Below, in pieces: positions 53,357 to 57,108 of a stretch of DNA of 64,000 nucleotides (the first letter of the stretch is position 1; every line of letters begins with the position of its first letter). The notes under the pieces were generated by a model. The model was not told the origin of the DNA, ran no database searches, and saw only the letters and a program-made list of their open reading frames with translations. The DNA comes from Natronosalvus rutilus (GTDB lineage: Archaea > Halobacteriota > Halobacteria > Halobacteriales > Natrialbaceae), in the NCBI RefSeq assembly GCF_024204665.1, contig NZ_CP100355.1:2647451-2711450 (forward strand), written 5' to 3'. The position numbers and the translations under genes were made by a program.

Positions 53357-54268
53357 TCAGAACGTCGCGACGACCTCGTGGATGCACCCGTCGGGCTTGT
53401 AGTGGGTGAAGTGATCCGGAACGTAGTCGACGTTGTGATCGGTGTAGTTCCACGGCGGTGTACCATCGATCGTCGTCGCACCGATTGCGGTCCCCATCTC
53501 GGCAGTGCCGTAGGCCCAGTCGAGCACGGCGTCGTCGTTCATCCAGAAGTTGTCGAGGCGACCAGTCGCGCTCGCGATCGCGGAACCGTAACTGCCCTCA
53601 AGCGAAGGTGCGTCGTCGGCGGCGGCACCACCCAGGAGGGTCACGCTCTCGAGGAGGCCGTTGTAGCCCCACGACGAGAGCGTCGCAACCGCGCTGAGGG
53701 CGACTCGAGCGCCGAGGGAGTGCGAACAGAGCCTGAGCGTCACGTCAGGGTTCTGAGCACGATAGTCGACCAGGAAACTCGCGAACTTTGCTCCGTTTCG
53801 TTCGGCAATTTCCGTTGCGTTGTACCAGCCGTAGTCGGCGTCCCAGGTGTAGCCGACGACCGGGTGATCGTAGCCCTCGAGGTCGAACGTGTTTGCGGCG
53901 GTGCTGGTCGAGCAGACGCCGCCCTCGTGGTCGTTGTTCCAGCCGTGGGCGTGGATCAGGAGTTCTCCGGCCGCCGGTTGGCCGAGTCCAGGGATCGGAT
54001 CGCCCGCGAGGTCGTAGTTCGTGTCGGTGTTTCCGTCGGTGACGTAGACGCTCCCGTACCAGTTCGTGTCGAAGTGGCCTCGAGTGCTCACGCGCGGGAA
54101 GTCCATCGGCGGGTCCTCACAGGAATCGCCTTTCCCCGCCTGGACGGACGACGTCGCCGCGCCAAGCGTGCCAATACCGACGGCAGAGACGCCGAGACCG
54201 CGGAGGACAGTTCGTCGCGAAACAGGTCGATCGGTCGTGCCATAATCTCTCGTGTGTCGTGGTGGCAT
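53357..54268 (-). CDS. Tat-exported alpha/beta hydrolase (lipase-like)
   Basis: A 303-residue secreted protein. The Tat signal SRRTVLRGLGVSAVGIGTLG is followed by AATSSVQA, a likely signal peptidase I site, with no lipobox. The hydrolase region has LLIHAHGWNNDHEG (oxyanion region), the nucleophile elbow in LCSHSLGARVALSAVATL and a late His (DHFTHYKP). A C-P-rich start (GDSCEDPP) follows the signal. This fits an extracellular lipase or esterase; the substrate is unknown. TATA ATATTTAGG lies about 20-28 bases upstream of the ATG on the minus strand. Confidence 0.87.
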   Translation of the reverse strand: MPPRHTRDYGTTDRPVSRRTVLRGLGVSAVGIGTLGAATSSVQAGKGDSCEDPPMDFPRVSTRGHFDTNWYGSVYVTDGNTDTNYDLAGDPIPGLGQPAAGELLIHAHGWNNDHEGGVCSTSTAANTFDLEGYDHPVVGYTWDADYGWYNATEIAERNGAKFASFLVDYRAQNPDVTLRLCSHSLGARVALSAVATLSSWGYNGLLESVTLLGGAAADDAPSLEGSYGSAIASATGRLDNFWMNDDAVLDWAYGTAEMGTAIGATTIDGTPPWNYTDHNVDYVPDHFTHYKPDGCIHEVVATF

Positions 54269-54487
54269 AGGTCGTACTTCAATACACCTAAATATTAATG
54301 TTATCGAGAGTGTTCGTGCAGAATAACATTCGGAGCAACGTGCAAGAAGTTTATTCTATTCGCTCGTCTGAATGAGTGTATTTCGGATATGGCCAAAGAT
54401 ATCCGTAGCCCTCTACTCGAGCGACAGTGGTCGCGTTCATCGACAGTCTGTAGCGTGTCCGCACCGATCGGTCGTCGAACCCACGGA

Positions 54488-54701
54488 CTTTATACTACCT
54501 GGGTGTGTAGACGGGGGTAGCGAAACCCGCGGGCAAGTGCGTTCGCGCGACGTGGACACGGCCTCGCCGTGTTCGACGTCCGGAATCGATCCCGAACGCA
54601 TAGCGGGACCCCGACCGACGCGACACCGTGGCGGTCTTTCGTACCCGGGAGTCCGCGGACCGTTTCGATGAGCGCACACACCGCGCTCAGTGTATACAAC
54701 C
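54488..54701 (+). promoter_or_regulatory. RNase J promoter and structured 5' leader
   Basis: TATA box CTTTATAC (54488-54495) predicts a start near 54520, giving a leader of about 180 bases before the ATG at 54702. No TATA is seen at leaderless distance from that ATG. The leader holds a strong hairpin: GACGT and ACACGGC on the left pair with GCCGTGT and ACGTC on the right (54549-54580), 12 pairs with a small internal loop and a CTC loop. CGGG/CCCG and GCG-TTCG-CGC stems lie before it. Confidence 0.5.
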
Positions 54702-56051
54702 ATGGAAATCGAAATTGCAACCATCGGCGGTTACGAAGAAGTTGGACGGCAGATGACTGCCGTTCGCGCAGGAAACGACGTCGTCATCTTCGACATGGGT
54801 CTGAACCTCTCGCAGGTTCTCATCCACGACAACGTCGAGACCGAACGCATGCACAGCCTCGACCTGATCGACATGGGCGCCATCCCCGACGATCGGATCA
54901 TGAGCGACCTCGAGGGCGACGTCCAGGCGATCGTCCCCACCCACGGTCACCTCGACCACATCGGCGCGATCTCGAAGCTCGCCCACCGCTACGACGCCCC
55001 CGTCGTCGCGACGCCGTTCACGATCGAACTGGTCAAACAGCAGATCGAGAGCGAGCAGAAGTTTGGCGTCGAGAACGACCTGGTCAAGATGGACCCCGGC
55101 GAGTCGATGACCATCGGGGACCACGGCTGTGAACTCGAGTTCGTCAACGTCACCCACTCGATCATCGACGCGATCAACCCCGTGCTCCACACGCCTGAGG
55201 GCGCCATCGTCTACGGCCTGGACAAGCGCATGGACCACACGCCGGTCATCGGCGACCCCATCGACATGAAACGCTTCCGCGAGATCGGGCGCGAGGGCGA
55301 AGGCGTCCTCTGTTACATCGAGGACTGCACCAACGCGAACAAGAAGGGCCGAACCCCCTCCGAGAACGTCGCTCGCGAACACCTGCGTGACGTCCTCTAC
55401 AGCATCGAGGACTACGACGGCGGCATCGTCGCCACCACGTTCTCCTCACACATCGCTCGCGTGAAGAGTCTCGTCGAGTTCGCCGACGACATCGGCCGCC
55501 AGCCCGTTCTACTCGGGCGCTCGATGGAGAAGTACTCTGGCACTGCGGAACGACTCGACTTCATCGACTTCCCGTCGGACCTCGGGATGTTCGGCCACCG
55601 CAAGTCCGTGGACCGGACGTTCAAGCGAATCATGAACGAGGGCAAGGAGAACTTCCTGCCAGTCGTGACGGGCCACCAGGGCGAACCCCGCGCGATGCTC
55701 ACGCGCATGGCTCGGGGCGAGACCCCCTACGAACTGGACGACGGCGACAAAGTCGTCTTCTCCGCCCGCGTCATCCCCGAGCCGACCAACGAGGGTCAGC
55801 GCTACCAGGCCGAAAAACTGCTCGGCATGCAGGGCGCACGCATCTACGACGACATCCACGTTTCCGGCCACCTCAATCAGGAGGGTCACTACGCGATGCT
55901 CGACGCGCTCCAGCCCCAGCACATCGTCCCGGCTCACCAGGATCTCAAGGGACTTTCCGGCTACGTCAAGCTCTGTGAAGGCGAGGGGTACCATATGGGC
56001 CGTGACGTCCACGTCTCGCGCAACGGCAACCTGATCCAGCTTGTCGACTGA
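54702..56051 (+). CDS. rnj: ribonuclease J (archaeal, beta-CASP metallo-beta-lactamase)
   Basis: A 449-residue RNase. The metal site is [20 protein letters not shown], with further ligands in [13 protein letters not shown] and [18 protein letters not shown]. The beta-CASP motif lies in [20 protein letters not shown] and GRSMEKYSG. Archaeal RNase J degrades RNA 5' to 3' and processes transcripts. The in-frame upstream start at 54690 is rejected because homology begins [20 protein letters not shown]. It is followed after one base by idsA, a pairing common in archaea. Confidence 0.95.
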
Positions 56052-56052
56052 T

Positions 56053-57108
56053 ATGACATCACCCGAGGCACGCGAGAAAGCGGTGCTCGAGGCCGTCGGC
56101 GAGCGACGCGAACTCGTCAACGAGGCCATCCCCGAAGAGCTACCGATCACGCGGCCAGAACGTCTCTACGAGGCGTCCCGATACCTGCTCGACGCTGGCG
56201 GCAAGCGGCTTCGGCCGACGGTCCTGCTGGCCACCGGGGAAGCACTCGCCGACGTCGAGCCACTGTCGACGCCCTACCGGGAGTTCCCGACGGTCGAGGG
56301 ACCGTCCAAGACCGTCGACCTCATGGCCGCCGCGGTCAGCGTCGAGGTCATCCAGTCGTTCACGCTCATCCACGACGACATCATGGACGACGACGACCTC
56401 CGACGCGGCGTCCCCGCCGTCCACAAGGCCTACGACCTCGAGACGGCGATTCTCGCGGGCGATACGCTGTACTCGAAGGCCTTCGAGATCATGCTCGAGA
56501 CGGGTGCCGAATCCGACCGAACGGTGCAGGCGCTGCACGTCCTCGCGAACACCTGCACGCAGATCTGTGAGGGACAGTCACTCGACGTGAGCTTCGAATC
56601 GCGCGAGGACGTCACGCCCGAGGAGTACCTCGAGATGGTCGAGCAGAAGACCGCCATCCTCTACGCAGCCTCGGCGGCGCTCCCGGCAATCTTGCTGGGG
56701 GCCGACCAGGACACCGTCGACGCACTCTACGGCTACGGACTCGACGTCGGGCGTGCCTTCCAGATCCAGGACGACGTGCTCGACCTGACCGTCCCCAGCG
56801 AAAAGCTCGGCAAGCAACGCGGGAGCGACCTCGTCGAGAACAAACAGACGCTCATCACGGTCCACGCCCGCGAGCAGGGCGTCGACGTCGAGTCGCTGGT
56901 CGACACCACCGACGTCGACGCCGTTACCGAGGCCGAGATCGACGACGCCGTCGCCACGCTCGAGGACTCCGGGTCGATCTCCTACGCGAACGACAAGGCG
57001 CGCGACCTCGTCGACCGCGGGAAGAACCGCCTCGAGGTGCTCCCCGACAACGAAGCTCGTGAATTGCTCCTCCAGGTTGCCGATTACCTGATCGAGCGCG
57101 GCTACTGA
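56053..57108 (+). CDS. idsA: geranylgeranyl/polyprenyl diphosphate synthase
   Basis: A 351-residue prenyl chain-elongation enzyme for archaeal membrane lipids. The first Asp-rich motif is LIHDDIMDDDDLRRG and the second FQIQDDVLDLTVPSEKLGKQ, both magnesium-diphosphate sites. GGKRLRPTVLLATG binds isopentenyl diphosphate. Residues just before the first motif (SVEVIQSFT) lack bulky aromatics apart from Phe, so chain length is probably C20 or more, by inference. It is co-transcribed with rnj. Confidence 0.95.
   Translation: MTSPEAREKAVLEAVGERRELVNEAIPEELPITRPERLYEASRYLLDAGGKRLRPTVLLATGEALADVEPLSTPYREFPTVEGPSKTVDLMAAAVSVEVIQSFTLIHDDIMDDDDLRRGVPAVHKAYDLETAILAGDTLYSKAFEIMLETGAESDRTVQALHVLANTCTQICEGQSLDVSFESREDVTPEEYLEMVEQKTAILYAASAALPAILLGADQDTVDALYGYGLDVGRAFQIQDDVLDLTVPSEKLGKQRGSDLVENKQTLITVHAREQGVDVESLVDTTDVDAVTEAEIDDAVATLEDSGSISYANDKARDLVDRGKNRLEVLPDNEARELLLQVADYLIERGY

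Follow-up and report, generated by a model that had tools for sequence, protein, structure and literature searches.

A conserved structured leader of the RNase J gene in haloarchaea and its possible role in feedback control

In bacteria, the leader of rne mRNA feeds back on rne expression. Among the closest described systems are the rne leader found in Gammaproteobacteria and, in Pseudomonadales, the rne-II motif (RF01756; PMC2864571). As in the case presented here, both are structured 5´ leaders of a gene for a central RNA-decay enzyme. A decay enzyme sets the lifetime of its own mRNA also in Bacillus subtilis; RNase Y autoregulation is reported to work there through cleavages in two regions, one of them near the beginning of the reading frame, in its first ~100 nt (PMC10303841). 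Haloarchaea themselves have the Halobacteria S15 ribosomal leader, a predicted cis-regulatory RNA found by covariation 5´ of rpsO, whose expected ligand is a ribosomal protein (Eckert and Weinberg 2020, PMC7247131).

Here we describe a leader of rnj, the RNase J gene, in a 64,000-nt stretch of the Natronosalvus rutilus genome (the window). It differs from rne leaders in several respects: the enzyme is RNase J instead of RNase E, the hosts are Archaea instead of Bacteria, there is no Rfam match, and feedback on rnj is what we infer. Rfam 15 gave no match at gathering threshold in the window and none up to E 5 in 54300-54760; covariance models of the rne leader families (e.g. rne-II) were unmatched, and no tRNA was found. 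An ACA before the ATG, which an H/ACA guide RNA would have as a conserved box at its 3´ end, is missing in many rows. The main texts searched, mostly of open-access papers, contained no description of a haloarchaeal RNase J leader.

Promoter and architecture of the rnj leader

The gene is identified as rnj by Pfam and NCBIfam, with TIGR00649 scoring above its cut-off. The original prediction placed a TATA box about 210 bases 5´ of its ATG, and comparison bears this out: of 84 non-redundant leaders, 77 have a TATA box 36-42 nt 5´ of their CCCGCGGG anchor (four of the remaining seven are incomplete stretches and three do not match the pattern). Between -40 and -18 relative to the rnj ATG, none of 85 leaders shows a TATA-like string, so leaderless transcription of rnj is not indicated. 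The transcript is expected, from sequence, to start near 54516-54520, and the best reading of ~54518-54701 is a 5´ untranslated leader of rnj mRNA, ~185 nt long. Around and just 3´ of the TATA box (54480-54510 in the window), the window's family shares a conserved sequence, GGGYGUGUAG, that may serve as an operator.

Table 1. Features of the rnj locus, in positions of the window
Feature	Position	Strand	Remark
TATA box TTTATA, rnj promoter	54489..54494	+	37 nt 5´ of conserved element
P0 5´ strand CGAAA	54521..54525	+	proposed closing helix with UUUCG 54663-54667; weakly supported
P1 5´ strand CCCGC	54526..54530	+	followed by conserved GGGCAA 54531-54536
P2 5´ strand GUGCGUUCG	54537..54545	+	six covarying P2 pairs
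Apical arm of P2 (originally predicted hairpin)	54549..54580	+	real; sequence and length vary
P2 3´ strand CGAACGCAU	54593..54601	+	covariation
P1 3´ strand GCGGG	54603..54607	+	two P1 pairs changed on both sides
P3 hairpin	54613..54636	+	loop in window's genus shorter than usual CCGACGNGCUGNRAGAYGCCGG
P4, GUCCGCGGAC	54651..54660	+	form of window's family
P5 hairpin UGAGCGC/GCGCUCA	54669..54689	+	ends 12 nt 5´ of ATG
rnj, RNase J (archaeal, 449 aa)	54702..56051	+	ATG at 54702; Pfam and NCBIfam
Polyprenyl synthetase (NCBIfam geranylfarnesyl diphosphate synthase)	56053..57108	+	immediately 3´ of rnj, same strand

According to the proposed model (Table 1), a P1/P2 arm would be followed by the P3 hairpin, whose loop contains GNRA in most lineages, then by a small P4 and finally by the P5 hairpin beside the start codon. 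The P1/P2 arm (54526-54607) has an asymmetric GGGYAA loop between its two helices and a conserved CCCGCGGGYAA strand plus bulge. P5 is compensated when compared with UGAGAGUC/GGCUUUCA in relatives. In P0, 91.2% of cells are paired and no pair has changed on both sides; P4 is invariant in alignment A2 (defined below) and thus without covariation support. The hairpin singled out by the original prediction does fold as described, but it belongs to the P2 arm that varies and is the least conserved part of the leader. The conserved RNA surrounds it, comprising P1, P2, P3 and P5, and extends beyond what had been noticed.

The leader (54512-54701) is more stable than its dinucleotide shuffles (z -2.93, 0 of 200 equally stable); for its part 54512-54615 the corresponding values are z -2.05 and 6 of 200. 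In the minimum-energy fold of the full window leader, a long-range CCGCGGGC/GUCCGCGG pairing is preferred over P1; we rejected this pairing, which is lost outside the window's family. In close relatives (locus L002, G001 and G004), P3 and P4 are separated by an insert that contains inverted repeats and measures ~90-100 nt.

Covariation of the paired bases

Several sets of leaders were compared. Reduction of 55 leaders at 93% identity left 44, and removal of L059 gave alignment A1 (43); A2 holds 34 of these, without the window, L001, L004, L042, L048, L050, L068, L071 and L077. In the wider set, 153 of 184 upstream stretches could be placed and were reduced to 85, then to 82 by omission of L053, L175 and L176. 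Addition of L149, L158, L165, L167 and L170 produced the covariation set of 87. The null placed the parsimony changes of each column randomly on a tree of the rnj coding sequence.

The core is nearly invariant when only the window's family is considered, which leaves little information there. Across haloarchaea, two pairs of P1 covary beyond the null (p_G 0.004 and 0.005), as do all six pairs of P2 (p_G 0.001-0.03, P2 being blanked in rows with a different junction); since GCG[GA]G served to locate the P1 3´ strand and the junction to set the P2 register, counts for both helices lean to the structure. In P3, three outer pairs covary beyond the null (p_G 0.005-0.015). The third outer P3 pair shows no covariation and scores worse than the null, with A-C in 16 of 77 rows, and invariance of inner P3 arises by construction, as its rows were picked by string pattern. 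P1-P3 cells of the 87 rows comprise 1390 Watson-Crick, 132 G-U, 21 A-C and 32 other combinations; the excess of G-U over A-C indicates that the rnj-sense strand is the folded RNA.

Alignment A4, made with MAFFT and not fitted to the structure, contains 28 of the 29 short-arm leaders (L042 is left out). Shuffles of it give 11.3 cells with changes on both sides, the alignment itself 27. None of 500 shuffles reached this number, and sliding of the partner strand gave at most 13. RNAalifold on A1 recovered P2; P1 and the P3 hairpin were not recovered, CGCGGGC was given another partner, and the covariation term amounted to only -0.34. The original prediction had named lack of conservation of the paired bases as grounds for its rejection; the pairs are conserved and covary across haloarchaea. 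Its claim that rnj has a long structured leader is well supported, most strongly by comparative evidence and further by the fold z-scores.

The usual P3 string with its GNRA-type loop is present in 72 of 82 non-redundant leaders and absent in the window and its genus. This 21-base string alone is unspecific, as with one mismatch it matches many other places. A different hairpin overlapping P3, GGGGYC/GRCCCC, occurs in 24 of 36 distant leaders (L050-L080, L111-L185) versus 8.3 expected by shuffling, and in 0 of 36 remaining leaders versus 3.7 expected. In distant leaders such as L071, L124 and L159, GGGGYC of P3 may instead pair with a GRCCCC that follows shortly after it, so that another fold is conceivable.

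Linkage to rnj and other leader classes

By its 5´ anchor, the same leader was recognized at 54 of 80 named haloarchaeal rnj loci and in the window. L002 was left out of this set, as its insert displaces the anchor; the other dropped loci lack the anchor string. In the alignment of the 54 loci and the window, conservation continues through to the rnj ATG. Covariance model R1, for which 34 leaders from the family of the window were used, has a single match in each of 129 out of 293 genomes of the order, and no second copy per genome appears in these 293 genomes at E 0.01. We fetched 105 matches, 103 of which are immediately 5´ of rnj and on its strand, and not 5´ of rpsO, the position of the Halobacteria S15 leader. 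The median distance from match end to ATG is 17 nt (73 of 75 measured). The two others, L171 and L178, have E 0.0016 and 0.0075; a search for rnj next to them found none, and they are probably false matches.

Model R2 was built from 28 short-arm leaders. Two of them, L032 and L110, belong to the Natrialbaceae set, and the other 26 represent different families or distant loci. It matches once in each of 126 of the 293 genomes, at the same locus as R1 in the window's family, and fails to match the window's own genus. The union of both models covers 146 of 293 genomes, part of which were checked for rnj. In a search of 196 genomes of the phylum, none of the 18 matches lies outside the order.

The gene 5´ of the leader varies. 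It encodes an alpha/beta hydrolase in the window, an amino acid kinase in L011, an amino acid permease in L032, Rpb4 in L059, LSM in L071 and an Eco57I-type methylase in L077. As upstream neighbours change between lineages, the element evidently travels with rnj, which is expected of a cis element. These facts bear on the second option of the original prediction, a separate small RNA that would act in trans, its position before rnj merely supplying a promoter. The compact, highly structured and stable fold, beginning near the expected transcript start, would suit such an RNA. But conservation does not stop before the ATG, the + strand showed no terminator-like site in 54250-54800, nearly all copies adjoin rnj while their neighbours change, and the genomes hold no second copy. 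Pairing with or mimicry of rRNA was likewise rejected: four motifs compared with the genome's own 16S and 23S loci, flanks included, gave no match or pairing beyond shuffles. We thus regard a trans-acting small RNA as improbable, and a cis-acting leader of rnj as the better reading.

Many lineages without this leader class carry another structured leader at rnj. A second class, found in Haloarculaceae and three more families, has CCGAG near its start and a CUCGG whose end is 8-11 nt from the ATG; this holds for 24 of 27 leaders inspected (L051, L053-L058, L063, L064, L066, L069, L072-L076, L078, L080, L186, L188, L190, L195, L196, L200). As for the exceptions, L065 and L189 lack CCGAG and L067 is incomplete. 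In all 24 leaders, CCGAG is directly followed by a stem with 7 or more pairs, versus 8.2 leaders expected by shuffling. A hairpin CGGYCGCCC/GGGCGRCCG with compensated changes was also seen in this class. Second or divergent rnj copies (L060, L062, L070, L209, L215) possess a different leader with a common string near AACC..A..GACGCGCUGU. Two families (L211-L213) show neither leader class.

The 5´ CCGAG, able to pair with a strand so close to the ATG, and the start of P1 very near the 5´ end expected for the transcript, within a few nt of it, could be taken to mean that such leaders mainly shield the mRNA of an exonuclease from that very exonuclease, or help leadered translation without Shine-Dalgarno sequence, no regulation being involved. 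The near-constant unpaired GGGYAA and UGNRAGAY would be needless for mere protection, and we find this explanation hardly probable. Regulation through the leader is preferred.

A possible feedback on RNase J

We suggest that a cis-acting leader feeding back on rnj expression is the best explanation, one that we hold somewhat probable on the strength of the sequence comparisons and of the rne analogy. Its two parts are not equally firm. Firstly, the leader probably regulates. Secondly, the signal may be RNase J activity, as the linkage of the leader to rnj and the rne precedent suggest; for this part we see the chances as balanced. With plenty of enzyme in the cell, the leader would be bound or degraded by a factor acting in trans, RNase J or its complex being the most likely one, and stability or translation of rnj mRNA would fall. 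When the enzyme is scarce, the leader would stay intact and rnj would be expressed. Autoregulation by RNase J itself, proposed originally on the example of rne, is plausible by that analogy.

The same structure and the same linkage to rnj would be seen if the cis-regulatory leader sensed some other input, for example another RNA-binding protein, RecJ3/4 partners, salt or a small molecule. The near-constant apical string of P3 in most lineages looks as expected of a specific binding site and is in line with this possibility. The element is present once per genome and at rnj only, however. With only one gene as target, a shared ligand, as in a metabolite riboswitch, is less likely, and parsimony favours feedback by the gene's own product. 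We therefore consider another input rather unlikely and retain feedback by RNase J as the preferred mechanism.

Taken together with the other leader classes, our tentative proposal is that an old RNA feedback circuit operates on haloarchaeal rnj. An RNase J-sensing leader of one class would serve many families; in Haloarculaceae and their relatives it would have been replaced by an unrelated leader whose ends meet beside the start codon, and in rnj paralogues replaced again. The conserved structured leader spans many families and stands at a gene for RNA decay that is reported as essential in Haloferax volcanii (PMC10470531); an rnj strain under tryptophan control is reported in the same paper. 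As there are clear pairs to mutate, feedback tuning of RNA decay in Archaea is directly testable in genetically tractable species. If our assumptions are true, then Archaea have their own counterpart of rne feedback, with a circuit that persists while its sensor RNAs are replaced.
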